From Heterotrichella gracilis (Eukaryota > Sar > Xanthophyceae > Tribonematales > Xanthonemataceae), in contig JAULBX010006442.1 of NCBI GenBank assembly GCA_032358255.1, positions 60,695 through 124,694 of the forward strand: 64,000 nucleotides of DNA. Reading direction: 5' to 3'. The notes beneath the pieces were generated by a model that worked only from the letters and a program-made list of their open reading frames with translations, was not told the DNA's origin and ran no database searches. The translations under genes were made by a program, and so were the position numbers. Position 1 is the stretch's first letter. Every line of letters starts with the position of its first letter. Of this stretch, positions 433 through 61,130 are shown one piece after another.

Positions 433-2281
433 GCGACAGCATAGGCGGCGTACTGGGGCGGGCGGTGGGTGACCGGCTGTATCGCCTGCCTTGTCTGGGT
501 GCGGTGGTGGTGCTAATTGGGGCTAACCACCTCAACCACATGAGACACGTGAGTGCCAACCTAATGAAAACCCTAAACTCTAAACCCTAAATGCCCGCAA
601 TGCCTGGGTGCGGTGGTGGTGCTGGTTGGGGCTAACCACCTCAACCACATGGGACACGTGAGTGCCAACCGAATAAACCCTAAACCCAAACCCTAAACCG
701 AAACCCTAAACCCTAAATGCCTGCCACGGCTGGGGGCGGTGGTGGTGCTGGTTGGGGCTAACCACCTCAACCACTTGAGACACACGAGTGCCAGCCTACT
801 AAAAACCTAAAACCCCAAAACAAAAAATATTCTTGCCTGGTGGGCGGTTGTGCTGCTGATTGGACCCAACCATCTCATGTGTGCTTGAGACATGTGACAC
901 GAGACCACGTAAGAGATCTGGGTGACGCATCGTGTGTGCCAATAGCATGCTGTATATGTATGTGCATGCTGCATTTGTGGCAACTTTGACGTACATGGAC
1001 AGTGGTGCATCATTTTGTGCATGCACAATACGGCCCAGCAACAGATTAGCAGACACAGTTTTAGCAGAAGTATAATTAGCACATATATAATAAGCACATA
1101 TATGAATTGTGGTGCTGCCCACACTTATTATTGTGCACATATTGATCAACTGTCAACAAACTGTTTGCGCATGCATTTTTCAGCCCTGCGCTGGCAAGGG
1201 TGCCACTATGTTGCCATTGGGATTTAATTAAATGCACATGGTACATTCATCCTCGAGAGATCGCCAAGTTCCACCAAACTATACACGGTAACATTGGAAA
1301 TACGGTACCATTTAATTTACATGGTTTGCTTTTGCCGTGCAGTGGGGTTCCCGCTTGAATACATCCCTGGACCCCTCCCTTGCCCCGCTGGCGGCGGAAA
1401 TTTCCGGCATGATTTCCCAGGCGGCCACCCTCATCCGCGCCACCTCCCCCCCGGGGACCAAAATCATCGTCAACGGAATGATCCCCCGCGGCCACAAATG
1501 GAACTCAAATTTCACCTCCAGCAACCACATGCCGGTCATTAAGAATATCAATGCCAGGCTGGAGGCGGACGCGTCAGCAAATAGGACCTTCACATTTGTG
1601 GACTGCACCAGATTTCTGGTCAATGTGACAAAGGTGCGCTGGGCCTAAAATCTGCTCTTGCCCCCTCCCCTTCCCTCCCTTCTCCTGCTTCTTAACGACA
1701 CCTTTTGCCCTCCTACTTCCCATCGCCACATGCTATACCTGTCATGGCGGGGCATACCCACACATATAGCCAGGGGGAAACCCTGAACCACCTTTGAAAC
1801 CCTAAACCCTTAAAGCCAGCTTAAAGAGCTTGAGCGTGCACACCCTTCCCTCAAAAAACGGCACCTTTGCCTTCCCCCTTACTATGACCACCATTTGCTC
1901 CACCTGTCATGGCGGGGCATAGGCGCAGTCATGTACCCTAAACAATGAAGCACACTTTAAAAATCCTAAATAATTGAACTCAGCTGGTACCGGCCACATT
2001 CATTCTCCTTTTCCCTCCCCTCCTACTACGACCATCTGTCATGGAGGGGCGTGTGTGCCCTTGCAAAAAATAAACCCTAAACCTCCCTCCATCCACAGAA
2101 CGGCACCTTTGCCCTCCCCGATTACTACGACCGCCACATCCTGCATCTATCTTGGCGGGGTGTGCGCGCACTCATCAACTGCTGGCTGCCCCTGCTGAGG
2201 GAGACTTTCCCACAGGCGCAGCTGCCACCCACCTGCACAGCGGAGTATGACGTTCCCCTGGGGGCATCAGCGCAGGGATAG
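433..2281 (+). CDS. SGNH/GDSL-type hydrolase, 5' end missing
   Basis: Three exons join in phase: 433-548, 1343-1633 and 2099-2281 (TAG stop), giving 195 visible residues. The first exon opens in phase with GDS, the nucleophile block of SGNH esterases, and ends with VVVLIGANHLN, which fits block III (G-x-N). The middle exon has the strand KIIVNGMIPRG and the helix KNINARLEADA typical of the PAF-acetylhydrolase-like branch. The last exon has LPDYYDRHILHLSWRG, where block V with the catalytic Asp and His is expected. The family hydrolyses ester or acyl groups; the substrate cannot be read from the sequence. The N-terminus is outside the window, so targeting is unknown. Both introns carry decayed copies of the neighbouring exon ends. 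The family call is firm from blocks I, III and V; the subfamily is inference. Confidence 0.75.
598..905 (+). repeat. Three decayed copies of the SGNH exon 433-548 tail
   Basis: Segments at about 598-661, 722-792 and 833-905 repeat the end of the preceding exon (the GTGGTGGTGCT...AACCACCTCAACCAC part with the following donor). Divergence grows with distance. Stretches of CCCTAAA separate them (for example 664-716). The first two keep a GTGAGT-like or similar donor, so they are possible decoy splice sites. Confidence 0.85.
1690..2056 (+). repeat. Three decayed copies of the SGNH last-exon head
   Basis: Segments at about 1690-1752, 1855-1922 and 2012-2056 resemble the start of the exon at 2099 (ACGGCACCTTTGCCCTCC, TACTACGACC, CTATCTTGGCGGGG). 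Each has small indels that break the frame. They precede the functional acceptor at 2097-2098. Confidence 0.85.
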
Positions 2282-3020
2282 CAGGGCTAAGACCCTAGCA
2301 TAGGGTTGGAGGTGGGAACCCTAGCATAGTGGTATGGTTGGAGGCGGAACTGGAAAACTCTCATGCTGGGTAGGCAGATCTCGGGTATTTTTGGGGAGCA
2401 GAAACCCTAGCGTAGGGTATGACGATCCCTGGAGAGGAGCTGCGCAGGGGTAAATGGGACCCTGGCGCAGGGTCTGGAGGTGGGAACCCTAGCGTAGGGT
2501 TGGCGGTGCTGGCCAACCATTGGCGTAGGTTTTGCGGCGCTGATGTATGCGTGGGGCAGGGGTGTGTGGACTCTGGTTGAGCCTGTTGAGCCAGTTTGGT
2601 ACGCATGGCATATGCGTATACATACCATACCACGTAGCGGGTCTGGTTTATTGTGCACTCGTTGACAATTCATCAACAATGCTATGCAAACCTCATTACA
2701 TATTGACTGTTACAGTCAGCGGTGAGTGAAGGGCTTACAAAAGAGTTTTAAGGCTTAATTAAAACCCTTGTTATCTAAAAAAATCTTGTACTTAGCGGCT
2801 GCGCCACACAGGGGCACCCCATGCCATGTGACTATCAAAGGCATGTGTACATCAATTACTGATAGCACAGTGCACCACAACGATTTTTCAAAAATGTTTG
2901 TTTTTCTGAAAGAAAGGTTATGCTTAGGGTATGTGTAGTGCCTGCCTGTCACCTGCGGGCTCAAGCCATGAGGCCATCTCTTTTGGCTTTGGCTTTCACC
3001 TTTTTTACTGCCCGGATCAA
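2282..3020. other. Non-coding stretch after the SGNH hydrolase
   Basis: No gene recognised. Between 2282 and 2510 there are several copies of an AACCCTAGCRTAGGGT motif with GGAGGTGGGAACCC, a local degenerate repeat. The remainder (2510-3020) looks like ordinary A/T-richer sequence. Confidence 0.5.
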
Positions 3021-3089
3021 TCTATATAGACACTATAGAAACGCACCAAGTTGGTCTTGAAACAATTGTGTGAGTGGAAAGCTTGGTGG

Positions 3090-3310
3090 TGGTGGGCAGT
3101 AGGTAAATCTTACAACACTGAGTGCAATTGCACGGTGCCAATGCCGCCTTGGGCATCACCATGGGGTTGGGAAAATGGGGTGTTGGAGAATGCGTTCTGT
3201 GGGGTGTGTGGGTCTGTATCGACATGGCCTCCCCTCTTCCCCTTTTCCTCGGAACTAGGCAAAGGCCAGTTGGAAACGGCTACGTGCAAGGGTTAGGCTG
3301 CGCAGGCCTG
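3090..3310. repeat. Duplicated block, partner at 8580-8800
   Basis: This block, with its TGCACGGTGC and TTGGGCATCACCATGGGG core and the ending GGGTTAGGCTGCGCAGG, aligns by eye with 8580-8800 over about 220 bases. No ORF is conserved between the two copies, so the shared unit is non-coding. It belongs to the set of large duplications that also carries the COPA exon relics. Confidence 0.75.
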
Positions 3311-3379
3311 CCCTGAGGGTGTCCATATGGCAAACTTCAGTGGGCACTACTGAAGTTTGCCATATGGACACCCCCAGGG
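3311..3379. repeat. Near-perfect 31-bp hairpin
   Basis: Arms 3311-3341 and 3349-3379 are reverse complements with one mismatch and enclose a 7-nt loop (GGGCACT). The arms contain GTCCATATGGCAAA. A related, longer-looped inverted pair with the same core lies at 11087-11110 and 11192-11214. It could be a small foldback transposon remnant or a small-RNA precursor; the sequence alone does not decide. Confidence 0.85.
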
Positions 3380-3667
3380 CAGTACTAGTACGCAGCAGGC
3401 TCAACTAGCTCAAATTTTGCCGCCCTCGCCTTCCCCTAAGCCTCAAGCCCTAAACCCTAAACCCCTTCCCCTCTCCTACCCATTTTTGCGGCCCTCCCCT
3501 CCCGCAAAACCCTAAACCCCTTTTCCATCCCTACCCCACTTTTGCCGCCCTCCCCTTCCCCCGAAACCACAAACGTTTGCCGCCCTCCCCTCCCCTCCTT
3601 TCCCATCCCTGCTATCCCTGCTCCCCTAGCTAGGGTTCCTTCGTGACCACCACCACCCTGCCTCCCC

Positions 3668-3910
3668 TGCAGGAGCCGGAAGACACAGACACCTGGCACA
3701 ACCCTCAACCCTAAATACTGAATGCTCAACCCTAGGCACCATGCAGGGGCTGGACGGCAAGGACACCTGGCACCCTGCAGTGCTGGACGGCAAGGACCTA
3801 GGCTAGGGCTACTAGGGCGGGCGGCATGGGTGCGGAGGCGCTACGCCTGGGCAACCACCTAAACCACCGCGATGATCTTCGAGTCACACTATTTGGGGAC
3901 CAGGGAGTGT
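3668..3910 (+). pseudogene. Coatomer-alpha (COPA) exon relic, copy 1
   Basis: After CCTGCAG acceptors, 3669-3700 and 3740-3770 resemble the codons for the conserved coatomer-alpha stretch LDDKDTWHRLG, and 3820-3860 continues as GAEALRLGNH. COPA orthologues read this region as one exon followed by a helix ending in FERLSFLYL. Here the copies are interrupted by stop codons and indels and the head is duplicated twice in a row. It is a relic, not a gene. The closest full-length match in the window is at 8260-8400. Confidence 0.7.
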
Positions 3911-4310
3911 GAGCGCCTGTTCATGTGTAGATAGTGTATAGCATGGCTGGATGGAGGCTTCTGAGGGAATGGGCATACTTACCGGGCTGCTGACCTGTGT
4001 AGGGTTTAGGGTGTAGCGGTTGCCAGGCAGCGCCGCCCTCAAAGAGTGCCACCATTCCCCTGAGGCCAGCTGCACACAGCCACATAGTTTACATACTTAG
4101 TTAGCTGTACGCACATCATAATTGATTAGCAGTCAGTACACGGCCACAAGCACAAGCGAATGAGGTTCCTATTTTTCAGTAGCATATGTTGCATTGATTG
4201 ACTTCATGTCCAGCCTGAGTGCCACGGGGCACTAGGAAGGTTGCCAGCCATGTGCAGTCACGGTAACTACCCTTGTCTGGGAGTATGGTGTACGTGCTCT
4301 GTTCAGATGT

Positions 4311-4381
4311 GTATTTGTACGATTTCGATGATGAACGATTACAGATATGTACTTGTACGATTTCGATGATGAACGATGATT
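4311..4381. repeat. Two-copy tandem repeat, about 38 bp
   Basis: The unit GTAYTTGTACGATTTCGATGATGAACGAT is present twice in direct orientation. No coding role is seen. Confidence 0.85.
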
Positions 4382-4589
4382 GCTTGATTTTAGGTGTAAC
4401 ATCTTATCGCCAGCTGGCTCGACAGCTTTAAAGTAATTACAGCAGCTTTGTGTGCGCAGCAACAACTGCCACGGAGGTGATGCAGGCTGCTAAGCAAGCA
4501 ACTGAATGTTCCTGATGATTTCTGTTTTGTATCTGAAGTGTAAATAAGTATTACAAGCTGTTGACATCATCCTGAGTGAGCTCGCTCCA

Positions 4590-4768
4590 CGGGAACAATG
4601 AGATCATCCTAGGGATCAGCCGCACGCTCTATGAAGACATTGGGATCGTCCCAGGGAGCGATCCTCCGCACGTTGGGTGTGCCAGAATACATCACCAAAG
4701 TGTTGGGCAACTGTCATGGTCTGTGGAGACAGGATTATCCCTGGGATGGAAGGGACCAGCAAATCCAG
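4590..4768 (+). pseudogene. COPA exon relic (ILRTLGVPEYITKVLGN segment)
   Basis: In the frame of 4631-4885 the translation contains ILRTLGVPEYITKVLGN, which matches the conserved coatomer-alpha segment that precedes the alpha-solenoid. A GTGAGC donor follows at 4769. Upstream and downstream residues do not continue the family pattern, and no intact exon precedes it. The exon lies in the right order before the next relic at 5201. Confidence 0.75.
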
Positions 4769-5200
4769 GTGAGCGGGTGGGATCCCCCGTTGATGGGGGT
4801 GGGTGGGCAAAGGCAGACATATTGTGGTATGGACAGGTTCAGGCCCTGCTCATGGCCAAGGGTGTGTGTGCACGTTCAAAGGTAGCGGGTTTGCAGAGTG
4901 ACTTGCCTGCGCTGAACCTGGGATGAAAGGGTGCAAAGTGACTGTAGTGACTGTCAGTGAGGTTGCACCCCTAAACCCTATGGCTGCTGCTGCTGCTGCT
5001 GCCCTTCTATGCATCACTGCAAATACGATAATTACTGCAGATCGTAATGTGTTGGTTTATGTCATATAACTGTTTACACTTTGCTTAGGCCGCCTTCCTC
5101 AGATTGCACCCCCCAGAGCAAGCTCAAGCCCAACAAAAATATGTCTTTAAAACAGTATTTCTTGTTTATATATATTATTTACATGTTTTTATTTGACCAG

Positions 5201-5393
5201 GTACTGGCCATGATGCGCAACAGCCAGCTGTGCGACCAGGCAGCTATCGCCCACCCGCGTGCAGGCCAGGGGCTACCCAGAGTACCAGAAGTGGCGCTGC
5301 ACTTTGCCCAGGGCGAGCGCACGCGCTTGGACATATTCAACCCCAGGCTGGCGGTGGACTGGGGCAGCATTGACATCGGCTATGTCGGCGCAG
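5201..5393 (+). pseudogene. COPA exon relic (MMRNSQLC...VALHF segment), frameshifted
   Basis: After an acceptor (GACCAG at 5195-5200) the frame reads VLAMMRNSQLCDQAAIA, then loses the family pattern. QARGYPE appears in another frame, and PEVALHFAQGERTR returns to the first. Coatomer-alpha orthologues read this as one continuous stretch, so indels have broken the exon. A GTGAGC donor follows at 5394. It ends in a VDWGSIDIG segment that recurs at 7725-7762. I read this as a dead copy of COPA that still carries its splice junctions. Confidence 0.8.
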
Positions 5394-5860
5394 GTGAGCC
5401 ACTGCTGGGGGTGAGGGTTTGTGTGGGTTGGAAGTTGGAGATCAACCAATCAAGGGATTATTTGGCAGCATCATGCGAGCATTGGGGTGGTACCATTGGG
5501 GTGGTATCAATCTTTTGAGGGGTCAAGGATCCATGTGCACTTGCTCAATCCGGCGTGTGTAAACAGGCCATACATTAGTGAAGGGGTGGTGGGCCGTGGG
5601 CAGGACACTCTGGTGCTGGAGGATCGCCTGCAAAAAGGGAGGGTTGACTGATAAAGGGAGGATTGACCATAAAATGCTATGCCGTTGGGTTGCCCTCCAT
5701 TTGCCACTCTTGCCGCCCTCCCTCACCCCTTTTCCCTCCCTACTCCCCTGGTGCGTTCCCTGTGACCAGTACCACCCTGCCTCCCCTGCAGGAGCTGGAT
5801 GACAACCCTAAACCCTTCAGGACACCTTGGACCGCCTGGGTGCTTTGGGACTCGTTCAGG
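5394..5860 (+). pseudogene. COPA intron plus exon-head relic
   Basis: The intron-like stretch 5394-5620 aligns with 7763-7990 (shared GTGAGCCACTGC start, ATTGGGGTGGT middle and GTGGTGGGC...GGGCAG end). A pyrimidine-rich run then leads to CCCTGCAG at 5783-5790 and GAGCTGGATGAC, the start of the LDDKDTW exon. This is interrupted by an AACCCTAAACCC insertion and resumes as GACACCTTGGACCGCCTGGGTGC. A telomere-like motif has therefore landed inside former coding sequence. Confidence 0.7.
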
Positions 5861-6439
5861 TACTTACAGAGCGTCCAACGCTGCGGACCTCACCTGCACA
5901 CCCTTCTTTTGCTAAATGTGCACTCAAGCTTCTTTCCAATTGGGTGGTGCTCACAATATTTTCTTCCAGTGAATTGGGTGGTTTTGACACCTGGTTTTAC
6001 CGTCAAGGATATCACCCACACCCTCCGGCCACTGACCCGCAGGCGTCAAGGCGCAGCGCAGCGCTCTTCATGTCATCTATGCTCATGTGTTCATGTGATT
6101 CCATGAGCGGGTCTCCGTTGCGCTTTATGGCCTTTATCTCAATGGCCAGAGGGTGTGGGTGACCTCCCTGGCGGTGAAGCCTGGTGGTCACAGTGTCGAA
6201 CCCCGCGCATCACCGCCAGGGATAACACCCACCCCGTCTGGGCCACAGGGATGAAAGGCACAAGGCGCAGCGGAGACCACATCATGTCATGCACAGTGCT
6301 CATGGCATTCATATTGTTCATGAGATGTCGTGAGGGGGTCTCCATTGCGCCTTGTGCCCTTCAACTGCCTGACCATACGGTGTGGGGTCATCCTTCGACG
6401 GTACAGCCAGGTTACCACTGGGTTCCTGCTGGTATGTAG

Positions 6440-7090
6440 AATGATGCCCCTTCTGTGTATGCACGCTTATTTGACCTTCAGCAGGTTGATGGGTTGATAC
6501 AAAACATCAGGCGAAGCCATACGCTAAGGGCCATGCATATGCTGATACAAGGTGTGCACCGCAAGCAACCCTGTGTGTGCAGCACTTGGATTGTGCGATC
6601 AGATGCTTCTTCACGTCGCTGCGTGTGCGCATGCGCAGCACCTCAAGAGAGAATGGAATGCACACTTCACGTGCTGCATACAACATTGCTTGCGTCTTTG
6701 CAGCCATGCCAGCCATAGTGCATGTCAACAGTGAACCCTAAAACATAAACCCTAAACAGTGCGGTTCAACCCTCTTGAAGTTGTTGCCTCTTTGCCAGCC
6801 ATGCCAGCCAGCCACCCAAAGCGCATGCCGTCTAGCATTTTGGCGTGGATTGCTGTGCAATATCTCGAGACTGTATGCGTTGCCAACTTGTTGCTTGGGC
6901 AAGCTGAGCCCATCAGGTACATATACCACATGCATGCGTTGCCAATTCCAAGTACTCCAAGCTTGCTTTATACCATGCAGTGAGACCTGACACATAGCTG
7001 GTGTGCTCAGCTAGCGCAATGCAGTCGTCGCAACTAAATTATAATGCATTTTTCACATCCCAGGTGGGTGCACAGCAGGCAGCACGCCTT
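6440..7090. repeat. Duplicated block, partner at 10555-11020
   Basis: The two blocks share in order CCCCTTCTGTGTATGCACSCTTA, ACCYTCAGCAGG, GTGCACCRCGCAA, the CCCTAAACAGTGCGKTTCA piece, GCATGCGTTGCCAACT and TCCCAGGTGGGYGCACA. Indels are large. No conserved ORF is present. The block is part of the COPA-associated duplication field. Confidence 0.75.
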
Positions 7091-7203
7091 GCCAGGGACA
7101 CCCTGCAGGGCAGTGCCAATACGCAGGGGGCGGCGGCACTTCCAGTACTGGTGGGCGGTTGTTTCCTGGTTTCCTCTGTCGCAAAAATACACCCTGCCTC
7201 CCC

Positions 7204-7410
7204 TTGCAGGGGCTGGATGACAAGGACACCCGGCACTAACCTGACACAACCCTAAACCCTAAACAATAAAGTTTCAATAAACCCTAAACATTGGCATACA
7301 ACCCTAAACCCCAGACATTGGCAAATAAACCCTAAACAATAATTAAATCCTAAACACCCTGCAGGAGCTGGATGACAAGGACACCCGGCACTTCCAGTAC
7401 TGGTGGGCGT
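7204..7410 (+). pseudogene. Two COPA LDDKDTW exon-head copies
   Basis: GGGGCTGGATGACAAGGACACC at 7209 onward and GAGCTGGATGACAAGGACACC at about 7366 onward are two further heads of the same coatomer-alpha exon, each after a GCAG acceptor. They are separated by about 110 bases of CCCTAAACAATAAA-type sequence. Both run into unrelated sequence (CACTTCCAGTACTGGTGGGCG) that also occurs at 7137-7155. Confidence 0.75.
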
Positions 7411-7724
7411 GATCTAGGCAGGACTGCATGTACAGTACATGCAGCAATTGCAGCAACTAGGCAGTACTGCATGCGTTGCCAACTGCTTCATTCCAATACA
7501 CCATGCATTGTGACCTACAACGCAGTTTGTGTGCTCACCCACGTGTTGCAACTCACACAGTTTTTGTATTCCAGGTGGGGTGCACAGCAATTGCAAGCAG
7601 CAGCGGCATTGACGAGAACACCCGAAGGGCGGTCAGAGCAGTAATAGCACTAGTACGCAGAAGGCGTTGGACAATGGACTAGGCGGTCCTGCGACAACAT
7701 CAACAATAGCCAGGATTGCGGTAC

Positions 7725-7990
7725 CGGTCGACTGGGGCAGCATTGACATCGGATCGGCGCAGGTGAGCCACTGCCGGAGTGCGAGGGTCTGTGAGGGTTT
7801 GTGAAGGGTGCACCTCGAAAGTTCAAGCAATGGAGGGATGCGGGGGCATTGGGGTGGTGTGCAGCCTGGCGCATGTCTATGACGCACCCCAAACCCTAAC
7901 CCCTAAACCCTGTGGTGCGCAACCTGTCATCGGAGCATACGTCAGTGAAGGGATGGTGGGCTGTGGGCAGGTAGCACTCAGTGCAGGAGT
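7725..7990 (+). pseudogene. COPA exon-tail relic with following intron
   Basis: GTCGACTGGGGCAGCATTGACATCGG followed by GCGCAG and GTGAGCC repeats the tail of the relic exon 5201-5393 and its donor. The adjoining intron-like stretch matches 5394-5620. Upstream exon sequence is missing, so the copy begins within the old exon. Confidence 0.75.
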
Positions 7991-8164
7991 ATGAAGTAAT
8001 GGACAAGGGAGGTGCTGTGCTGATGGGTTGCCCTTCCCCACCCTTATTTGTCAACTTTGTCGCCCTCCCCTCCCCCTAAACCCTAAACCCCAACAATAAA
8101 TCCCTTTCACATCCCTACCCCCTTGGTGTTTCCTCCGTCACAAAAAAATACACCCTGCCTCCCT

Positions 8165-8410
8165 AGCAGGAGCTGGATGACACGGACACCCAGCATTACC
8201 CTGGCACAACCCCAAACCCTAAGCCCTACATACGTATACTAAACCCTAAAACGCCCTTGCAGGAGCTGGATGACAAGGACACCTGGCACCGCATGGGTGC
8301 GGAGGCGCTGCGCCAGGGCAACCACCACCATCACGCCATCCAGGGACCAAGACTCGGAGTATGAGCGCCTGTTCTTCCTGTACAGCATGGCTGGATGGAG
8401 GCACAGGAAG
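8165..8410 (+). pseudogene. COPA LDDKDTW exon relic, best preserved copy
   Basis: Two heads occur: about 8169 (GAGCTGGATGACACGGACACC) and about 8262. The second reads ELDDKDTWHRMGAEALRQGN without interruption, which is the coatomer-alpha consensus. It then runs into CACCACCATCACGCC and a stop. A further frame at 8355-8395 resembles YERLFFLYSMAG, the FERLSFLYLITG motif of COPA. The exon is broken between these two parts. Confidence 0.8.
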
Positions 8411-8529
8411 GAATGTGCATAAAGGCTGCTGACCTGGTTAGGGTTTAGGGTTTGCCAGGCAGCGCAGCCCTCGGGTGCGACCATTCCTTTGAATCGGGGG
8501 CGCTCCCAAACAGCCACAGCCATATGCGA

Positions 8530-9334
8530 GGACAAAAATTTGGGCTTAAAACTTCTTACTACTCTTACAGTGTTCAAAACTGAGCAACTGCACGGTGCTG
8601 AATATTGTTGCTTGGGCTTCACCATGGGGTGGGAAATGGGGCAGAAATAGGGCATGGGAGAACGCGTGCTGTTACTGGTGTGGGTGTGGGCGTGTATTGA
8701 CTATATTGACAGCCTTTGACCCAATTCCCCTTGCATATCCCTCAGACTTGAGCAAAGGCAACGCAGCTTGGCAAGGGCTAGGCTGCGCAGGCTGCGCTAC
8801 CATGGCATTGCATGGGTGTTCCACATATGTTGAATGGAAAGCACTTTGCTGAAGTGGACCTGCACATGCTCCACTCCAAATTTCAATTTCAAACCTGCAA
8901 GCTGTTGGTGGGCCATCATAATGTTGTAATTTTCAGTAAGGAAGCAAGGTGTCTTTCAATCAAGAGGAAGCCGGGGACAGCATGCAAGGCCAAATGGGGA
9001 TGCTTGCTGGGGATGCGTTCTCGCCTGCACGCATCCCGGTGAATGCCCCTGATCTGCCACGAGGTTCACGTGATGCAGTTCCGAGACCATCAATCACCAC
9101 CTCCTGCTTGTTCCACACCAAGAAAGCACAGCGTGGAGCTGTCATGGCTCACACTGCATGTATAGGAGATACGGTGTGGATAGACCCGGACATGGTTGCG
9201 TTAGCCCTTCAAGAAACCTGCAGATAGGGGACCTGGGTACTTCACCGGCGCTTTACCAAGTGCTGTCTATCTGATGCAAAACGGCTGGCGTGTTGTGAGA
9301 GGTGCTACCCTGATCTCGTGAGCACAGACTGATC
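8530..9334. other. Stretch between the COPA relic and the membrane protein gene
   Basis: 8580-8800 is the partner of the duplicated block 3090-3310. From 8800 to 9334 no duplication or exon is recognised; it should contain the promoter and 5' UTR of the gene starting at 9335. No TATA-like element stands out. Confidence 0.5.
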
Positions 9335-10237
9335 ATGCAGCGTCTCACTCAGTGCACTCCAGCTGGCGCCAGTAGCGCTAGCTTGACTCCAAAATTGCCA
9401 GGTCCCGCCCAGCACCTGAGGCGGGCCATTCCAAGCGGGTCTCCTCTCCTGCGCTCCTGCAAGGCAGTCCGCTGTGCCCCCCACAGGACAAACAGCGTGG
9501 TCCCAGCAGCTGCAGCCAAGCGCGGAGGCAGTGCTGAGCTGTCAACACCCAAGCCGAAGTTGGAACAGGTAAGCGTTTTCAACGGTAAGCGCGCGCATAT
9601 GCATGCATGCTTGCCAACAAGCATGGCAATGCAAGTCTGCCAAGCGGCAGCCCGATGCTCGAATATGCATATGCATGCATGAAGCGTGTTGTTCCTCCTT
9701 ACAGCTGGTTCCTGGGTGCTCGTGTTGTTAACATTAGCCTTGGTTATGTGTAAACCCTTCCGGACCCTTGAGGGTATAGGGAGGAGTTTCTGACTGCTCT
9801 TGTGCCACCCACCGCAGTATTACCTGCCGTACTTGCCCATCTTCCCAGCAGCAGGCCTGGGGGCTTACGGGATCGCCCACTACTTCGGGGCGGATGACAC
9901 CGTCATCATCAGCCTCATCGTTTTCGTGACGGTGCTCAGCACCGGCTACTTCGTCAGGAAAGTTGTGAACAGGGTGTCAGCCACTGAGCGGAAAGCCGCG
10001 CGGCGCAACGCCGCGCTCTTCACCTCAGTCTTCCTGGTGTCGTTGGCTGTAACCTACCTGGCCCTCCCCCCCGAGTTTCTCGCCAACCTGTCCGCCGATG
10101 GGGCACAGGTGGTGCGGCTGCTGCTGGTCGGCCCTGGCGCGTGGCTCTGCGGGGAGACCATTTTCCAGTGGTCCATCGAGGAGGCAATGGCAGAGGCTAT
10201 AACGAGCAGGAGCTCAACGAGCTGTTCCCAGGCCTAA
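9335..10237 (+). CDS. Small multi-pass membrane protein, probably plastid
   Basis: Two exons, 9335-9568 and 9818-10237, give 217 residues. The intron has a GTAAGC donor and GCAG acceptor and is phase 0. Residues 1-78 are rich in Ser, Ala, Arg and Pro with few acids, like a chloroplast transit peptide. The second exon has four hydrophobic segments at roughly 82-102 (PYLPIFPAAGLGAYGIAHYF), 105-127, 147-168 and 183-200, with a basic loop (SATERKAARR) between the second and third. I do not recognise the family. The last 13 residues are odd: two bases over, the frame reads NEQELNELFPGLRRVRARRR to a TGA at 10264-10266, which looks more like real protein. A one-base indel or assembly error near 10185-10195 is possible. 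The gene sits intact inside the field of COPA relics. Confidence 0.6.
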
Positions 10238-10264
10238 GGCGCGTGCGTGCCCGCAGGCGCAACT

Positions 10265-10440
10265 GAACGTGCGGCCCTAAACCCTAACCGGCGCTACGGA
10301 ATCCTTAACCCTAAACCCTAAACGTGCGCCGGCTCCCGGAAGGGAGTGCCCTGAACCCCAAACCCCAAACGTTAAACCCTAACCCCTAAACCGTGCGCCC
10401 GGCTCCTGGAGGGCTTGGCCTAGCGCTCCACGCTGGTAAG
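10265..10440. repeat. CCCTAAA-rich stretch
   Basis: Many degenerate copies of CCCTAAA with spacers (ACCCTAACCGG, AACCCTAAACGTGCGCC). Two GTGCGCCGGCTCC / GTGCGCCCGGCTCC units repeat. It directly follows the membrane protein gene. Confidence 0.8.
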
Positions 10441-10554
10441 CGCTGGAACTGCAAGCTCCCTTTGGCATGCTGATATTAGGGTTTAGGTTTTTTGCCCTAT
10501 TGTTCAGTACCCTCCTCAGCATATGCATGCATGCAAAGAAGGGCTAACTCCTTC

Positions 10555-11020
10555 TGCCTTGTAGAATGCTGCCTAAGCCCCTTCTGTGCATGCACCCTTA
10601 GTCTACCCTCAGCAGGGTTGGTGGGTTGAGACACAGCACCAGGCCAAGCCTTAAACCCTAAGCCCTAAACCCTAAGCCCAGCTAAGCCCTAAACCCTACG
10701 TAGCATTGCATGCTATTTCAACGTGTGCACCACGCAATGGTGTGTACACGTGTGTGCAGACAGTAAACCCTAGATTATAAACCCTAAACCCTAAACAGTG
10801 CGTTTCATACCCTCTAAAGTTGTCACGTCTTTGACAGCCAGCCAGCTGCAGGCAGAGTGCATGCCGCCTTGCTTTTTGGCCTCCAATGCTGAGTAATATC
10901 AATATTCCGACACTGCATGCGTTGCCAACTCCTTGCTATCTACCATGCAGCGCGACCTTCAACGCACTTTGTGTGCCCAACCTAGATGCTGCAACCAACA
11001 CAGTCGTCACTTCCCAGGTG
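10555..11020. repeat. Duplicated block, partner at 6440-7090
   Basis: Second copy of the block described at 6440. It includes a run of CCCTAAGCCCTAAACCC units (10650-10700) that the partner largely lacks, so the telomere-like motif expanded after or during duplication. Confidence 0.75.
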
Positions 11021-11086
11021 GGCGCACACACGCACGTACTGCCCACTAATACTGACCAGGGCGCCTGCTGGTACTGCCCACAGTTG

Positions 11087-13845: not shown

Positions 13846-13859
13846 CTAAACCTTAAACC

Positions 13860-49312: not shown

Positions 49313-52300
49313 TCACGGTGTCTGGCCCCCCTCCGGTGCATCGTAGATGTCGTCCACCGATGCCTGTCGCTGCCACAGCTCCGCGTATTTCCCCCCCTTG
49401 GCCAAAAGCTCTTGGTGGGACCCAGATTCAACCACCACACCCTGCAAGGGGGAAAACAGGTACCTGGATGGTGCATTCAGTTGCATGATGCGGGTTTAGT
49501 GCAGCAATGGTTCCATCTATTTTACATTTTACATTGTATAATAGATGGTTCCAATGTAAAATATATAAATCCTACATTTTGGACAAGCACTACCAGCCAC
49601 CATTCCTTCCCACACCCACCTCCTCCAGAACCACAATCTGGTCGCACTGCGCCGCAGTGGACAACCGATGCGCCACAAACAGCGAAGTCCGCCCCGCAGC
49701 AAGCACCCGCAGCGCCCCCAACACCTCCTTTTCAGTCCTGGAATCCAGGGCAGAGGTGGCCTCATCGCACAGCAAAATGCGCGGGGATTTCAGAAATGCG
49801 CGCGCCAGCGCCACCCTCTGCTTTTCACCCCCGCTCAATTTCAGCCCCCGCTCCCCCACCAGGGTGTTGTACCCAAGGGGGAAAGCGGAGATCTGGTCGT
49901 GCACGGCTGCCATGCGTGCGGCCTCGTAGACCTGCTCGGGGGTTGCTGCCAGGTTGCCATAGTGGATGTTGTAGAAGATGGTGTCGTTGAAGAGAACCAT
50001 GTCCTGCGGGGGAAAGCAAGCAAGTGGTCATTACCTCAAACCCTAAATCGTGACCATAAAACAGGTGGTAAATTCCAGCTCTGAACTGCTGCAATGGCCT
50101 CAACCCATGCTATGTAATTGCACCCGCTGCTCCCAAACCCTAAACCCCCAACCCTAAATCAGTACAGTCCCCTCAACCAAGCCACGCCTCCCAACCGCTC
50201 CCAAGCCCCTCTCACAAAATCCCAGGCCCCCCATCTCCATCCCCACCTGTGGCACAATCCCCATCGCCCGCCGCACGCTCCCCATCTGCATGTCCCGGAT
50301 GTCGTTGCCACCGATCAAAACCGATCCGGCGCTGGCATCATAGAATCTGAACAGCAGCCGCAGCACTGTGGATTTGCCACTGCCGCTGGTCCCCACCAGG
50401 GCGCAGCTGGTCCCCGCGGGGACGGTGAGGTTGATACCCTACGCAAGGGTTGGGAGTATACAATTAGGATTCTATGGAGCTGGTGCGGTCTACTTCACCA
50501 AGGGTCATAGTAAGTGGTTTATGGTCTTTGGTTGAGGTCACGTGCTGCCGCTGGTCCCCATTAGAGCCCAGCTGGCGGGGACGGTGAGGTTGATACCCTA
50601 CACAATGGTTTGGAAAAGTGAGGGCATTAATATTATGGGCAGGGTCTAGGCTTTAGAGCTAGGGTTCCACATCAAGGATTCAAGACGGCATACACACCTT
50701 GAGGGTAGGATCCAGGGTTCAGGGTTAAAGGTTTAAGGTTCAGGCTGGCGCACGCACCCTGAGGATTGGCTGGTCTTCGCGGTACCCAAAGTGCACATCT
50801 CTGAGGACGATGTCGTAGCCCCGGGGACTGTCGGGCAGGGGGATGGCGCCCTCGCAATCCTGGGGATGAAAAATGCTTTTGGGAATTCAAAAATTGAGCT
50901 GCTGGGGTTTGTGGTACATGAGCTGTACGTATGAGGACACCGCCTGGAATGGGAGACCCCAAATCCTCATGGAAGTCAAACAATTTTTGCCTTGCAGCGT
51001 GCTGTAATTCAACACCATTATAGTTTGTATTTTCCTCCCCTCCTCACCTGGACATGAGGCTTCTCCCTTGTGAGTGCAAACATGGCGCCCATGTCTACCA
51101 GGGACTGCTTGGTCTCACGATACACAGTACCCAGGAAGTTGAGGGGCATGGACAGCTGCAGGAAGGAGGGTTTCAGTGTCAGTATTAGGGTTTAGGGTTT
51201 GGGGTACACGGTTTAGGGTGTAGAGTTCCGAGTCAGTACCCAGGAAGTTGAGGGGCATGGACAGCTGCGGGTAGGAGGGGTTCAATAATTATGACTAGGG
51301 TTTTGGGGTGTAGGTGTTTAGGGTGTAGCGCATGGATAGGTGCGGGGGGCAGACGGTAGGGATCGATTGTGTGCGGATTTTGCATATACGGTCACAGGTC
51401 GCAGCTTCAGGAAATGATTTTCCGCCTATACAGCGTACCTGTCTCACCGCAAATACTTAGCTAGGGTTGTCTTTGCAAGAATCAAACCCCGCCTGGCCCA
51501 TCGGCCATTGGCCAGGTGCAATAACCACGAAACCCTTCCCTAGGGTTCCAACAAAACCCTGCTTTTTACCTGGAACAGCAGCCCATTCACCATCACCAGA
51601 TCTCCCACCGTCAGGTTGCCTTCAGCGATGCCTTGCTGGGTCAGGACCATGGCAGCCGACAGCGCAAGGGAGAAGATGGCGTTCTGGCCAAAGTTGAGGA
51701 AGGAGAGCGACTCCATGGTCTGCAGGGCGGCCGTCTCGTAGCCTGCAGAAAACATGGCAGGGTTTAGGGTGTGCTTCAGAGTCCATTTAGGGTGCGTTCC
51801 AGGCACTCATCCTCTCAATTTAATGGAATTAGGGTTTGTGCCTTTAGGGTTTAGGGTTTAGCTTACGTTCCAGGCACTCGTCATATCTCCCCTTCTCATG
51901 CTCATCGTTATTGAAGTACTTTACTAGGGGTTGTGACTTCAGGGTTTAGGGTTTGACATACGTTCCAGGCACTCGTCGTATCTCCTTTTCTCATGCTCCT
52001 CGTTGTTGAAGTACTTGACTGTCTCGTAGTTTATCAGAGAGTCGATCGCCCGCGCCCCACCCTCGGAATCAGCTTTGTTCATCACCTGGGGGCAACAATG
52101 GGGTATCGAATTAGATAGATAAAATCATCGCAGATGAATATTACAAATATACCATCCACGGAGGCTCCAGGGCAGGTTTAATCAGACGGTCACATGTATT
52201 GTGGCTGTGGGTATAGGAGAAAAGCATCAGAGTTGGAGATGTTGGCGAGTGCAGCGGGGGTAAACAGATCTCCAGGCGTGTCACCTTGCCTTATTACCCT

Positions 52301-55300
52301 ATTACACCCCCTGTGTACCCACCAGAACACTACCACCTACAGAGGAGTACAGAGCAGTACAGAGCAGTACAGGCCAGTACAGTACAACACTTTTGGCGAG
52401 TTCTCAATAAACTTGTTGTACCCTACACACCACTACACAGCACTACACACCGCTACACGCCTCTACACTACAGGCTAGAGTACAACAGTTTTACCAACAT
52501 TTTTGATGAATTTGTTGTACCCTACACACCACTACACGCCACTACACGCCTCTACACATACCCTATCAACCATGGTCTCCACATGAAAACCAGCAGTGCA
52601 GAACCCTACACACAGGAACCTGCACCGCAACAACATAGCCACCGTGGCTCGTACAAAGTATGCCCATCCCCATTTCCAGATGTTTGGTGAATGCATCAAT
52701 GGTGATACGGTAGGCAATAGGATATGGCGCACCTACCAAACGAAAACCCTGTCTCAGTCCCCAGCTATACCCACCTACCTAAACTTTGTTCTCTATGGGG
52801 TAACAGCTGGGGGCAAACCGCGCCACACCATAACACCCCAATCTTCTGAACCCTAAAAAACACACCCACCGCTTGCCATTCATTAAATGGTACCCCTACC
52901 ATAAACAACACACTCACCTGTCTACATTTGGTCCTCCATTGGGTGACAGCCAGGGTAAAAACGCGCTACAACATAAACCCCCCAAACCCTAAACCCTAAA
53001 TCCTACACAACACACCCACCTGTCTACATTTGGTCCTCCATTGGGTGACAGCCAGAGTGAAAAGCGCCACAATATGAACCCTTAAAACCCTAAACCCAAA
53101 ACAGACACTCACCTGCCTGAACTTGGTCCTCCATTGGGTCACAGCCAGAGTGAAAACGGTGTATGCTCCCACAGTGCCTGCTGTGAGGATGGCAATACCC
53201 CAAACCCTCAACTCCAACCCCAAACCCAGGACCCTACACCGCCGCAACATACCCACCATACCCATTTAGTGAATGCATCGTCGATAATACTTGACTGCCA
53301 AATGCTATATGTGACATGTATGATGCATCTACCAGAACGAAGACCCTCCCTCACCTCCCAGCCAAACATGTGGTACCCACCTGCCTGAACTTGGTCCTCC
53401 ATTGGGTCACAGCCAGGGTGAAGACAGTGTATGCTCCCACAGTGCCTGCCGTGAGGATGGCAAAGGAGGGGCCGCATTTATAGGCCAGAATCCCCCCCAC
53501 CATGCCCACTTCCAGGAATGTGGGCACCACATTAAACACCATCGAGGAGAGGATGAAGTTTATACCTGCGATCGGCGAAATTGGAAGTACCAGTTTGATT
53601 GAAAATGTGTAGATGGTGGCACCGCATTCAACACCAACAACGGTCACTCATGCATGATAATTCTCTGACACAGGACACGCTCGTAAACTGCATCTACATC
53701 CATTGACCGTCCTTTGATCTCTGCAATCAGTTTATACCAATCCCTTTCTAATCGCCACCACCACCACCCGCATGCGCACCTCTCGTTCCCCTGTCCACGA
53801 TCCGTGCCAGACCCCCCGTCTGCCTTGACAGGTGGAAGTTCAAATCAAGGTTGTGTAGGTGGGAGAACACATCGTTGGCCACTCGCCGCATGGTGCGCTG
53901 CGTCACCTGAAGCAGTGGGTAGGGTATTGGGTAGGGTTCTTGTCAGGGCATGTGTTAAGGGTTTTGTTAGGGTGTTGGCCACCCCTTCCATGGTGCGCTG
54001 CATCACCTGAAGCAGTGAGAAGGGTTTTGCTTAGGGGTATTGTTAGGGTTTGGGTCAGGATTTTTGTCAGGGTTCTTGTTAAGGTTACGGGCACCCGCCG
54101 CTGCACCTAAGAATTGTTTGGTCAGGGTTTCAATTTGGTTTTGCCCACGTTGCCCATCCGCCGCATCCCTCTAAGCATCCCAAGCCTAAGGCAAATGGTG
54201 ACACCCTAACCAAGGGTTCACGGTATCACGCACCGTTGCAAACACTGCATTCCTGATTTCGTTGCACAGCGTGGCGCCCGCCCTTGCAGCTCCGTACCCT
54301 AGCAGTAGGGTGCTGGGCGCCAGCGCCAGCATAAACCCTACGCTAGGGGTTGCGCCGCTGGGGTCTAGGGTGAGTGCGTCCACTGCGTGCTTGAACAGGA
54401 AGGGGACCTGGGTAAAAACAGAAAAAAGGAAGTGTTGGAAACAAGATGGGCACATGCGAGCAACCACAAATCGATAGGGATATTGGAAATAATGGCTTGA
54501 TTGCCTTTCTTCAACCTAAGTCAACATCAGGAAGGGATGTGCCCCCAAACCCTTGCTCAACCCCAGATGGTAAGCACTTTTCCAGCGCTCCATGGGACTG
54601 CACGGATACTCGCAACCCCCCACCCCCCCAAAATAGCCCTCGGAATCCCTCGCCTTCAAAACTCTAACAAGCCTGCCGCAAACCCTGTCCAAAACCCTCG
54701 CCCCTTACCTGGATGTTGAGCACTTTTCCTGCCACCAGCAATCCCATGGCAGCCGCTGTGCGCAACCGAAACTCCTTGCTCTCCGGACCAAACAAATACC
54801 CGCCCAGGATTTTCAAGATTTCCCGGTCCGGCAAGGAGCCTTCTAGGGGTGAAACAGGGGGGCCTGGGGTTTAGGGGGTGGTTTCAGGGTGCAGGGGGTT
54901 ATTCTTGGGGCTGTTGAGAATCTGCATTTTTTGAGCTGGAGGTATAGCGTTAGGGTTGGCCTGGTCTGCAAGGGTTTAGGGTTGAAGATGGCCATGGCCT
55001 GCAAGGATCAGGGTTTCTACAAGGGTTTAGGGTTTACGGTTTAGGGTTTAGGGTTGAAGATGGCCATGGCCTGCAAGGATCAGGGTTTCTGCAAGGGGTA
55101 GGTTTAAGGGGAAAAGCTAGGCATTGGGTTTTGAACATAGAGCATTGGCCACAATGATAGAGTCTGGGGGTGGACAATAGGATGCTTTGGTAGGTGAAAT
55201 GCGCATCAGCACTTCAAATCAGCACTCGGAAACAGCAACCATTCCCATGCCTTCCTTCAGCCCCAATGCAATTGAACAATATCCTGCCCCCTCCCCTCCC

Positions 55301-57543: not shown

Positions 57544-60281
57544 ATGGCAAACCGTATGCGCTTCCAAAAAGAGGTACGACATGCATCACACACCCCCACT
57601 GTGACGTATGAGCTATGATTCTAGCGACTGTCCATGTCACCTCCATCCCCCCTCTCCACACACACACACACTATACGCGAGGCAGTGGGCTCACCCCTCA
57701 CAGCATCCCCCAGGGAGTGCCATTGCAAGCAACAGGGAGGGTAGAGTGACATATCTGCATTTTTATTGCTACTACCCGCACCACCCGCATCACGCACGCC
57801 ACCCCCCAGGGGAGTGTCACAGTGCGCAAGCAGCAGGGCAGGCAGATGTCTGCATTCTATTACCCCCCCACCCCCCATCCTTATCACTCACGCCACCCAC
57901 CCATACCACCCACACCACCCACCCTCCACCCTCCAGGGGAGTGCCACATTGCGCAAGCAGCAAGGGAGGGATGTGTCTGCGTTCTACCAGGACTTGGTGG
58001 GGTTGCAAGGGGAGGAAAAGGGAAACAACGACAGGCGAGGAGAGCCCAGGTGCGTACCCACGTTGGCACTGAAATCCTACATGGAAACCCTAGTGAGTGG
58101 CTCTGGAACCCTTCATGAAAACTGTAGTGAGTTGGCACGCCCTACTGAAACCCTGCGTGAAACCCTAGTGTGTGGCTTCGCCACATCGATTCCCTACTTC
58201 CCAAACCCTACAAGGAAACCCTAGCATGCGGGGCTCACCCCCTCAAACCCTGCATTTCAAAACCCTACATGCCAACCCGGGATCTTGGTCTTATCCACTA
58301 CTTGTGCTTTCCAGTGGCTCGGATCGCCAAGGTGAGCAGGCTGCGCATCCCCAGGGAGGGCCCAGGGACTCTCGGGGCCCAGAAATTCCCAATCGCATCC
58401 CCAGCAGCAATGTGGGCTACCAAATGCTGCAGCGGGCTGGTTGGCAGGAGGGCCAGGGTTTAGGGTTCCAATCCCAGGGTTTTGCAGACCCTGTGGTCCT
58501 GCCTACTACCAGCGGGCGCCGGGGATTGGGCAGCAGTGCTTCTGGGGATTTGCATAATGCGGCGCAGAATATGCGGTCCCAGGGTGGGCGTGCAGCAGCG
58601 GGGGGGATTCGGGAAACGCCACAGCAGCAGGATGGTAGTGTAACGGGGAGGGGATTGGCGCCCCCGCCGTTTCAAGGGAGGGTGGAGATCATCAGCGCAC
58701 AACGTGCCCAGCCTGGCACCGATCGCACCCGATCCAGCACCCGATCCAGCGCCCATCGTGGCACCGATCACACCCAATCCACCACCCACCGCCCTTCACC
58801 CACCAGCGGCGCCCCCCGCTACGTGCGAGGGGACGCGTACCACGAAGAGGAGGGGGGGGAGGGGGGCCAAGGGGGGGTGCGGCAGGGGGAGGAAGGGGGG
58901 AGGGGAGGGGATGTGCGCTACACGGTACCTGCGGGGAGCGTGGGGTACCGGCTACTGAAGGAGGCTGGATGGCGGGAAGGGGAGGGGCTGGGGTCGGGAG
59001 GACAAGGTGCGAGCTTTAGTGTGGAATAAACCCTAAACCCTAAACCATGGCTCGTTAGGGTTCCATTTGTTCGAGCAATACAGCCAGATTAGGTTGAGGT
59101 GTGAAACCCTGAAACCCTCAACCTAGCCAGATACCGGCTGCTGAGGAGGCTGGGTGGCGGGAAGGGGAGGGTCTGGGTTCGGGAGGACAATGTGCGAGCT
59201 TTAGGGTGACACACCAAACCCTAAACCCTAGTTGGTGGTTCACATGCAAGTTCAGCGGCACAGAGAGATGGGCAGCCAGGCTTGCACATGCGGTGCCAAA
59301 TAGCAAGCACTTTGGAGGACATAGCTATTGTAGCATGGTTCGAGACGCAAGGGAGCTATTCTAGCATGACTCCTGGCACTGTGTAACCCTTTGTTGCATG
59401 TGCATGTTTTTGTCAGCACAGAGTAGGGTTGTCTCTGAAGGTTTTCACCTAGGGTTTTCCCCCATCCACAGGGCGTGCCGAGCCAATCGAGGCATGGCAC
59501 AACCCAGGAAGGAGGGGCATCGGGGCGCCCCAGCAGATGCAACAAGCCAGCAAGGGTTTGGCTAGGGTTTCTATGCCAGGTGGCGCGCTGTCAGTGGGCC
59601 AACAGCCAGGGGAGGGGCAGGGCTCGGCTGGGGCTTCCGCCAAGGGTTTGGCTAGGGTTTCCAAGCGCAAACCGGACCCTAGGCTGCCTGATCCCAGTGT
59701 GGATGAGGATTTGGAGACCAAGCGCAAGAGGGTGGGCCAGGTGAGTGGTGCAGGGTGTGGGGTTTAGGGTGAAGTTAGGGTTTTGCTGAGGTGTAGGGTG
59801 TAGGTGTAGGGTTTGACTAGGGTTCTGAGTGCAAGAGGGTGGGACAGGTGGGTGCGGCAGGCTCAAAACCTGATCAAGGTTGTCACATCACCCACCACTA
59901 TTGTCGTGTCATCCCAGCTCCACAGGCATGGCAAGCTGAGGTGCATGCAGCGCCTGGCGCCACCATTGCCCGGCGCTGTGGCGCGCATCCAACGACACCT
60001 CCGGGAGCGCTCCTGGGCCAAGCGCCAATCCCTTGTTGCCGCTAAACCCTAGACAGGGTTTTGCACTCAGTCCACGCACTATTGACACAGGGTGTCCTGT
60101 AATTGCCCCCCGGTGCATTCCCCCGCAGGCATGGCAAGCAGAGGTGGACGCGGCGGCCAGCGCTACCATCGCCCGCGCGCTGCGGCGCGCATTCAACGAC
60201 ACCTCGGGGGGAGCTCCCGCGCCAGGGGGCAACCCCATCACCCGCACCAACAAGCTCTCGGCCCGCAACCCCCTCCTGTGA
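57544..60281 (+). CDS. Protein with two G-patch motifs
   Basis: Five exons close in phase: 57544-57573, 57937-58049, 58315-59006, 59472-59740, 60129-60281; 418 residues. An in-frame TAA just before the start fixes the ATG. G-patch 1 (about 77-115) reads NVGYQMLQRAGWQEGQGLGF and continues to a RRGLG end. After a Gln/Gly/Thr-rich linker, G-patch 2 (about 255-300) reads SVGYRLLKEAGWREGEGLGS and continues across an intron to WHNPGRRGIGA. The N-terminus ATLRKQQGRDVSAFYQDLVG and the end NPITRTNKLSARNPLL are also typical of plant G-patch proteins. G-patches bind and stimulate DEAH-box RNA helicases, so a role in splicing or ribosome assembly is expected. A basic DLETKRKRV segment may be a nuclear signal. 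The two G-patches, and two KGLARVS segments, suggest internal duplication. Confidence 0.87.
57690..57870 (+). repeat. Two echoes of G-patch gene exon 2 head
   Basis: 57692-57765 and 57808-57870 copy CCCCCAGGGGAGTGYCACARTGCGCAAGCAGCAGGG with the next 30 bases. Both contain indels. Between them lies CACCACCCGCATCACGC sequence that also precedes the true exon at 57937. Confidence 0.92.
59118..59850 (+). repeat. Echoes of G-patch gene exons 3 and 4 tails
   Basis: 59118-59215 copies the last 60 bases of exon 3, its donor region and 20 intron bases (GACAATGTGCGAGCTTTAGGGTG). 59818-59850 copies the end of exon 4 (AGTGCAAGAGGGTGGGACAG with GTGGGT). Confidence 0.92.
59918..60055 (+). repeat. Echo of G-patch gene exon 5, nearly full length
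   Basis: From the acceptor CTCCACAG through GCATGGCAAGCTGAGGTGCATGC to the end (CAATCCCTTGTTGCCGC), it matches the last exon but has lost frame by an indel after ATTGCCCGG. It lies between exons 4 and 5. Confidence 0.88.
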
Positions 60282-60394
60282 GGCACATGGCACAATGTAC
60301 CACGCGCATGGATAGGAGCTGACGTTGGCGATGATTTGGCTGCTGGTTTGCAAAGCTCTGGTGAGGCTATTACCCAGGGGATTTGCTCATTTCC

Positions 60395-61130
60395 CAGGGT
60401 CCAACCCCATCACCAGCGCCAAGCAGCTTTCGGCCCGCACACCGCTGCAGTGACTGATATGGCTCAGTAACTGGCATTCTGGGAGCCACACTCCAGCTCT
60501 TGGCTGTGGGTGCACATGGATCGTATGCGCATGGATGGGACCTGAGGTTGGCGACTGGTTTGGCTGCTGCTTAGGCGGATGCCAGGGGAGGCCAAGGCCA
60601 TTTGTTCCTTGGTCAGGCGCCAGGGGCCAACCCCGTCACCCTCACCAACAGTTGGCCTTGACCCTGCTGCTCATATATGGCAACGAGTTCACTGGCTGGT
60701 GGCTGTTGCGTCTGCGGAGCCCTGACCCAAGACCTGGGCAGCCTTTTTAATAAACAGTTCTTTAGTTCGTTTCTTGATATTCCAGCAATACCGCCGGATA
60801 GCAGTCAGTCTTACGCATGCGGCTGCTAAATAACCTGCCCAGGGGTTTGCTCGTGTGCCAGGCTCCAACCCCAATACAGGCATCAACCAGCTGTTGGCAC
60901 GCAACCCGTTACGCGGTTGTTGTCCTTTCTGTTTGTGCTGCAAGTTACGTATCTCCAAAAGTGACTGAAAAGGTCATTTATGTATGCCGAGTTGTATTTT
61001 ACCCTAATGAAAACCCTAAAGGAATTATATAAAATTAATTGCCATTATTCATCTTCAATGAATCATAGTGCGCTGAAACCAGGGTTGAAGCTGGCGCCAA
61101 CCTGGCGACCGCGCCAACACCAACAAGGGT
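60395..61130 (+). repeat. Four echoes of the G-patch gene 3' end, beyond the stop
   Basis: 60395-60455, 60612-60680, 60858-60915 and 61083-61130 copy the CAACCCCATCACC...AACAAGCTCTCGGCCCGCAACCCCCT end in decreasing quality. They show that the echo process extends past the coding region. Confidence 0.85.

Follow-up and report, generated by a model that had tools for sequence, protein, structure and literature searches.

Intron growth and the scars of break repair are usually deduced from isolated, rare cases. In algae and fungi, introner elements insert en masse into genes, are tolerated through splicing, and leave a sequence common to many introns. Mammalian interstitial telomeric sequences are short internal telomere repeats, sometimes accompanied by random bases, whose accounts describe direct target duplications and repair of staggered breaks. 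A target duplication accompanied 6 of the 130 loci studied in rodents and 4 of the 25 studied in primates (Nergadze et al. 2007, PMC2246262), and telomere repeats at staggered breaks with flank duplication at 3 of 66 horse loci (PMC7215372). Of the human loci in these accounts, none lies in an exon and 31% lie in introns, a distribution judged random (PMC2246262; PMC7215372). Small tandem duplications also arise when CST and polymerase alpha-primase fill in 3′ overhangs (PMC8355091), and in a potato RdRp gene the duplication of an exon–intron boundary segment, with the message repaired by splicing, gave birth to a new intron (PMC4974935). Here we describe a related but distinct pattern in Heterotrichella gracilis (Xanthophyceae): introns that carry decayed copies of the neighboring exon edge, often separated from it by telomere-like filler. 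We analyzed a stretch of 64,000 nucleotides, bases 60695–124694 of contig JAULBX010006442.1 (assembly GCA_032358255.1, 68.5 Mb, 903 contigs), hereafter the window.

This DNA shares with the mammalian loci the internal telomere repeats, the occasional other bases, and the direct duplication, attributed there to staggered breaks. Duplication accompanies only a minority of those loci in the published accounts, and no association with splice sites was observed there, whereas here filler and duplication together are frequent, lie at exon edges, and have a preferred total size. The fill-in duplications are likewise direct, measure tens of bases, and involve staggered-break fill-in, end joining, and telomere C-strand machinery; telomeric filler is absent from their description and telomerase goes unmentioned in the main text (PMC8355091). 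The potato case resembles ours in that a boundary-spanning duplication has its message restored by splicing, but an intron was born there, whereas existing introns lengthen here. Like introners, the insertions sit in genes and would be tolerated by splicing; unlike theirs, each copy belongs to a single exon edge. Both tandem duplication and the insertion of telomere repeats at breaks are already known. In the open-access literature, which leaves most subscription papers uncovered, we found neither a description of exon-edge copies separated by telomeric filler nor the two processes combined as a way in which introns lengthen genome-wide.

Unless stated otherwise, counts refer to 314 kb, made up of the window and 25 other places of 10 kb each, and statements about the genome rest on these 25 nuclear places rather than on the whole assembly. 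Places were picked by contig number. A 26th, L009, was excluded as bacterial: these 10 kb of the 894,458-base contig C1 have a GC content of 0.366, lack telomere heptamers, and encode a PorV/PorQ-family protein, which we take to be a mark of Bacteroidota and hence of a bacterial contig within the assembly. A simple ab initio gene finder trained on the 314 kb converged at 63 genes and 376 introns, with CAG/GTGAG-like donors and YYYTGCAG/G-like acceptors. Its 14 window models replaced the 12 of an initial annotation made from the sequence alone. Support for these ab initio models comes from Pfam, which assigned families to seven of ten window proteins, including SSB, ABC transporter, G-patch, metallophosphatase, bHLH, EF-hand, and CCD97-like families; a weak plant bHLH match (PF23177) fell under its cut-off. 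The label HhH is that of the initial annotation, and the Pfam scan gave no family for this protein.

Repeats in this DNA are predominantly local and direct. Self-BLAST of the window yielded, at offsets below 500 bp, 63 direct versus 5 inverted high-scoring segment pairs (HSPs), and 20 further 10-kb places (L009 among them, empty of repeats) yielded 96 versus 7. We then aligned the first and last 60 coding bases of 386 exons to introns, counting a local score of at least 20 as a copy. The adjacent upstream intron repeats the exon head in 46 of 338 cases, and the adjacent downstream intron repeats the tail in 44 of 327. Matches on the wrong side number 7 of 665 (head in the downstream intron, 4/327; tail in the upstream intron, 3/338). 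Reverse-complement copies in adjacent introns are absent (0/338 and 0/327, or 0/665), nonadjacent introns of the same gene are nearly empty (1/363 and 0/363, or 1/726), and introns of other genes gave no match (0/337 and 0/325, or 0/662). The initial annotation had proposed a comparison of this kind, of exons with own and foreign introns. Its result, a same-gene and same-strand excess with controls near zero, bears out the claim that exon-edge copies exist in introns, in the window and in the 25 places beyond it, and the claim that each gene has its own set.

Copies have a median length of 62–82 bases and occur in 83 of 365 introns. Among the 90 best alignments, 67 end at most 2 bases from the end base of the exon. 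In the window alone, 11 of 55 heads and 11 of 51 tails are positive. Ten of our 14 window models carry a head or tail copy (9 of 13 if two ABC models are merged); ten of twelve had first been reported, on a different set of models. Introns are longer where copies are present, as had been claimed (median 414 vs. 264 bases), partly trivially, as the copies themselves add length.

A looser search returned 221 direct pairs at offsets of 50–1000 bases, with 26 inverted HSPs. Pairs linked to an exon are more frequent than expected from random placement (119 vs. 76.5), pairs with both copies exonic are slightly so (46 vs. 39.6), and intronic (35 vs. 48.0) and intergenic pairs (21 vs. 56.8) are fewer. 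This excess is not by itself proof of an exon hot spot, as slower divergence of exon copies would explain part of it. Among the 119 pairs with one exonic copy, 75 touch the expected junction only, 1 the reverse only, 11 a mixture, and 32 no predicted junction. Of those 75, 41 have their sole junction where the first copy ends on the right, and 34 where the second copy begins on the left. Copies upstream of exons had been said always to hold acceptor and head, and copies downstream tail and donor; this polarity prevails, but "always" is slightly too strong. Nor does it call for a special process. When a duplication spans an acceptor, the remainder of the exon continues from the second copy, and the spare is the upstream one, made up of acceptor plus head; when it spans a donor, the exon runs into the first copy, and the spare is the downstream one, made up of tail plus donor. 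By this reasoning, which is geometrical and not computed, junction-spanning duplication and survival of the exon suffice, any other arrangement would spoil the message, and the polarity is no new law.

Clear arrays surround exons of an SSB-domain gene on the plus strand. Self-BLAST and reading of the sequence place three decoy acceptors with heads (23387, 23595, and 23743, within 23288–23928) before the functional exon 3 (23929–24068), as originally described. Exon 6 (26098–26256) is preceded by two decoy heads (25706 and 25896, within 25654–26097) and followed, in 26257–26996, by about five copies of tail plus donor with telomere-like spacers. The two heads and five tails match the initial annotation, but the number of tails is uncertain as a 100-base N gap (26437–26536) lies inside the array. 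This run of N is probably a scaffold gap caused by the repeat. In the ABC transporter gene, on the minus strand, alignment recovers the four reported copies of tail plus donor downstream of the exon at about 53381–53565, within 52769–53195: 53107–53195 (94% identity), 53014–53061 (88%), 52912–52962 (84%), and 52769–52812 (80%). Copies are also present in the HhH and G-patch genes, where the comparison covered some of the exons listed. Gene finders in such genomes will mistake decoys for exons, as happened here. Ours called some decoys exons, among them 26322–26405, by our reading itself a decoy and one of the 22 positive window exon ends; it merged a decoy head with the real exon (23724–24068), overlooked the ABC exon at about 53381–53565, and divided what looks like one ABC gene into the models 49313 and 53748.

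Once formed, the spare copies decay about as neutral DNA would and are dead. Identity of the 90 best copies ranges from 74.5% to 100%, with 11 above 95%, so the process looks both long-running and recent. Mismatches amount to 9.7%, 8.7%, and 17.2% at codon positions 1, 2, and 3, with 58 gap breaks in the 90 alignments. These values are expected if the spare drifts by about 9% everywhere and the exon similarly at third positions only. Decoy splice sites, a feature that the initial annotation had recognized, are largely preserved: AG or GT dinucleotides are intact in 57 of 68 copies, slightly more than the 74–75% expected under neutrality from mean pair identity, and these 68 copies give no sign of purging. 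In the ABC array, identity drops with distance from the exon, as if new copies displace old ones outward; in other arrays the gradient is less regular.

The initial annotation passed over what separates the copies. In 152 of the 221 pairs this is a gap of 4–250 bases, and adjoining copies, expected of plain tandem duplication and typical of fill-in duplications, are thus a minority. The telomere motif of this genome is TTTAGGG, with which contig C609 opens and contig C460 closes. It is the commonest seven-base circular motif in the sample (2402 occurrences, compared with 168–442 for 19 motifs of the same composition). In 137 selected gaps, TTTAGGG-like six-mers on either strand cover 14.4% of the sequence versus 4.5% of pieces taken 200 bases outside. 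Matching positions in 249 introns without detected repeats provide a better control: cover is 16.4% in the fillers of 29 head pairs and 22.2% in those of 30 tail pairs, versus 4.1% and 4.4%. Gaps that are at least half telomere-like number 14 of 137, versus 21 of 2596 random intron pieces. In 32 young simple pairs, the cover reaches 27.0% in the filler versus 5.3% and 11.9% in the outer flanks; one flank being often exon, this last comparison is confounded, and we relied on the position-matched introns instead. Several young fillers of 25–35 bases (L024:4814, L024:5531, L033:1348, and L015:8625) are nearly pure repeat, flush with both copies, with nonrepeat sequence in the outer flanks. As at mammalian interstitial loci, the genome's own telomere motif is therefore found internally, between direct copies of tens of bases. 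The tandem duplication first proposed stands as a local, same-strand duplication touching the junction, but it is mostly not plain, having telomere-rich filler between copies.

The DNA added per event, measured as the offset between copies, has a preferred size. Among 127 independent clusters, 25 have offsets of 100–109 bases, whereas the neighboring bins hold 10 and 9 (Poisson probability 7e-7 against the mean of four neighboring bins, before allowing for the choice of bin). Within this peak, copy trades against filler (e.g., 30 + 69, 46 + 54, 59 + 43, 80 + 26, and 100 + 0 bases), so that copy plus filler often totals about 105 bases. A second, broad hump spans 170–215 bases and drops sharply at 220; this mode is near the nucleosome repeat. 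A count of recurring 12-mers made without BLAST reproduces both modes. The position of the doubled segment is also biased. Where one copy lies outside exons and identity is 88% or higher, 20 of 21 segments contain more exon than intron (medians 38 and 12 bases); the proportion is 7 of 7 at 92% identity or more and 54 of 74 overall. When both copies lie inside one exon, the offset is a multiple of three in all 10 cases, which are not all independent, since some genes contribute several; exon–intron pairs are spread over the three remainders (40, 45, and 34 of 119).

We consider it likely, though by no means assured, that these features result from staggered breaks near exon edges, followed by fill-in and by joining with telomeric or other filler, and tolerated through splicing. 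Each copy would record a single insertion. Nicks about 30–100 bases apart on the two strands would produce a staggered double-strand break; the overhangs would be filled in, doubling the segment between the nicks, and filler, often telomere repeats, would be added before end joining. One event would thus add about 65–80, 100–110, or 170–215 bases. Where the doubled segment includes an acceptor or a donor, the spliceosome could remove one copy together with the filler, leaving the mRNA unchanged and the spare free to drift, whereas inserts wholly within an exon would persist only if the frame is kept. Heads would accumulate upstream and tails downstream, lengthening introns, and arrays such as that of SSB exon 6 might then grow by unequal exchange of the copy-plus-filler unit. 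We conjecture that telomerase may extend the overhang to a set length, which CST and polymerase alpha-primase would fill in; copy plus filler would then be constant, giving the 105-base mode. More ambitiously, a repair route borrowing the telomere machinery at exon-edge breaks, with a set length of about 105 bases and made nearly neutral by splicing, could be a main genome-wide source of intron growth, a proposal we make tentatively and at well below even odds.

Telomere heptamers rise sharply at splice sites, which suggests that splicing works as a filter behind which insertions are hidden. Summed over both strands, their density per kb is 0.7 in exons, 14.1 in introns, and 5.8 in intergenic DNA, and 191 of 376 introns contain at least one. 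On the intron side of donors, it is 13.4 and 13.7 per kb (G and C strand) at 0–20 bases, 12.3 and 24.1 at 20–40, 7.9 and 9.9 at 40–60, and about 2 and 2 at 60–100; on the exon side it is 0–0.7. At acceptors the rise is confined to the C strand, with 6.6, 22.8, and 14.3 per kb against 0.5, 2.0, and 2.8 on the G strand. Deeper in long introns the density varies between about 1 and 18 per kb, and control motifs are flat (0.1–1.3 per kb). Donors show no strand bias. That of acceptors, also seen in the head fillers (C-type 13, G-type 1, none 15), fits selection because the G strand carries AG. Together with the exon-heavy doubled segments, this profile suggests that breaks favor exons and that only those reaching a splice site survive.

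Several observations weigh against break repair with telomeric filler as we propose it. A telomere-like stretch is lacking in 59 of 137 fillers, and no local template was found for the nontelomeric fillers in the 23 tested, their longest exact match averaging 9.9 bases forward and 7.7 reverse versus 11.4 and 9.1 in 21 controls. Extension of 3′ ends by telomerase predicts TTTAGGG beside the left copy and CCCTAAA beside the right; 15 fillers agree and 11 do not. In a looser count, G-type repeats are closer to the left copy in 28 cases versus 15, but C-type repeats are as well (22 vs. 17). The rise of heptamers at splice sites remains, at about half its height, when detected repeats are left out, and telomere-like repeats beside copy-free splice sites may have another cause or be older. 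Breaks and fill-in give no account of the preference for 105 bases, and the intron lengths themselves show no quantization. Finally, uniform breaks do not predict exon-heavy doubled segments; a preference of breaks for exons must be assumed, as selection through splicing would if anything favor more intron in the doubled segment.

The alternative that survives best, although we regard it as unlikely, is that telomere-like patches came first and that slippage or unequal crossing-over between them caused the duplications. In the arrays of SSB exon 6 and of exon 433–548, copy and filler do recur as one unit, and introns in which no copy was detected commonly contain telomere-like repeats. In the young pairs, however, the patch occupies the space between the copies and the outer flanks contain less of it, the near-pure fillers end flush with the copies, and 59 of the 137 fillers have no patch at all. 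Slightly less probable is a copy-and-paste process, in which an intron break is patched from the nearby exon edge by templated synthesis, for example by polymerase theta, the gap then being old intron. Some gaps indeed read as though they were the ordinary 3′ part of an intron, complete with a branch point and pyrimidines, and little intron lies within the doubled segments. Such patching should nevertheless give copies on either strand and pieces from exon interiors, whereas reverse-strand copies are absent and most alignments end at the exon boundary; the gap is moreover telomere-rich relative to position-matched intron.

It is improbable that telomere-like motifs are kept as splicing signals and the duplicated junctions as useful spare sites. 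The motifs do lie within 60 bases of splice sites even where copies are not detected, and decoy dinucleotides are intact more often than expected. A strand-specific RNA signal does not predict the near-equal strands beside donors, intact decoys are favored by the procedure used to find pairs, and the spare copies drift at every codon position. A dispersed introner-type element carrying the copies is very improbable. Filler between direct copies looks like an insertion with its target-site duplication, but no exon end matches an intron of another gene, the fillers themselves not having been searched against the whole genome, and similar window stretches more than 10 kb apart are few (3 of 107 HSPs). 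An assembly artifact, for which the N gap in the largest array might speak, can be practically dismissed, since the range of identities means that most copies cannot be assembly duplicates, copies differ by up to a quarter, with insertions and deletions, and the pattern recurs across many contigs.

If the sample is typical, the 127 clusters in 314 kb extrapolate to the order of 25,000 in 68.5 Mb. Scars this dense, dated by their decay, each tied to a single gene position and labeled by telomere repeats, could allow one genome to reveal how often heritable break repair occurs, how much DNA it adds, and where it strikes. Intron gain, which the initial annotation had linked to tandem duplication, found no convincing case. 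In none of the 46 pairs whose copies are both exonic do a donor and an acceptor occupy corresponding positions, and a direct test of 313 introns gave no excess (0 and 1 vs. 2 and 1 in controls). Five candidates were rejected because they look like gene-finder errors, namely short decoy exons.

The remaining copies in the window are as follows (identities to the exon in parentheses). On the plus strand, the tail and donor of predicted exon 433–548 are repeated at 601–657 (93%), preceded by telomere-like CCCTAAA filler, and more weakly at about 719–877. Also recovered by both self-BLAST and alignment are tail copies at 25387–25488 (with donor and a filler rich in TTTAGGG-like repeats; exon 24880–25278), 30041–30100 (82%; exon 29666–29920), 32149–32208 (87%; exon 31724–31937), 37570–37631 (80%; exon 37276–37453), and 59133–59190 (93%; exon 58315–59006), and head copies at 38908–38954 (93%; exon 39067–39160), 39586–39632 (85%; exon 39768–39890), 57810–57859 (84%; exon 57937–58049 of the gene identified as G-patch by Pfam), and 59926–59984 (83%; exon 60129–60281). 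Self-BLAST revealed a copy of the tail region of exon 44320–44456 at 44557–44652 (84%), which the gene finder called an extra exon. Alignment added head copies at 1857–1915 (81%; predicted exon 2099–2281) and 47872–47907 (83%; exon 47970–48127), and tail copies at 24549–24590 (86%; exon 24296–24409), 29187–29229 (88%; exon 29019–29096), and 31335–31379 (83%; exon 30928–31115). On the minus strand, alignment identified a tail copy at 15032–15091 (91%; exon 15213–15599) and head copies at 20392–20441 (88%; exon 20220–20364) and 53974–54006 (82%; predicted exon 53748–53906). Two head copies of ABC exons, at 50545–50597 (92%; exon 50247–50438) and 51234–51264 (31 of 31 bases; exon 51048–51155), were recovered by both methods.

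Repeats of other kinds are also present in the window. Larger local repeats with a spacing of about 1–5 kb occupy 3577–12052 (e.g., 8154–8521 and 11682–12052, 78% identical), and at 5988–6393 repeats of about 200 bases, some inverted and some direct, are nested in one another. We further observed a near-perfect 75-base palindrome (91%) at 3308–3382, an array of 12.8 copies of the hexamer CAGCCC at 12042–12118, and 21-base tandem repeats within a predicted coding exon at 63432–63927.

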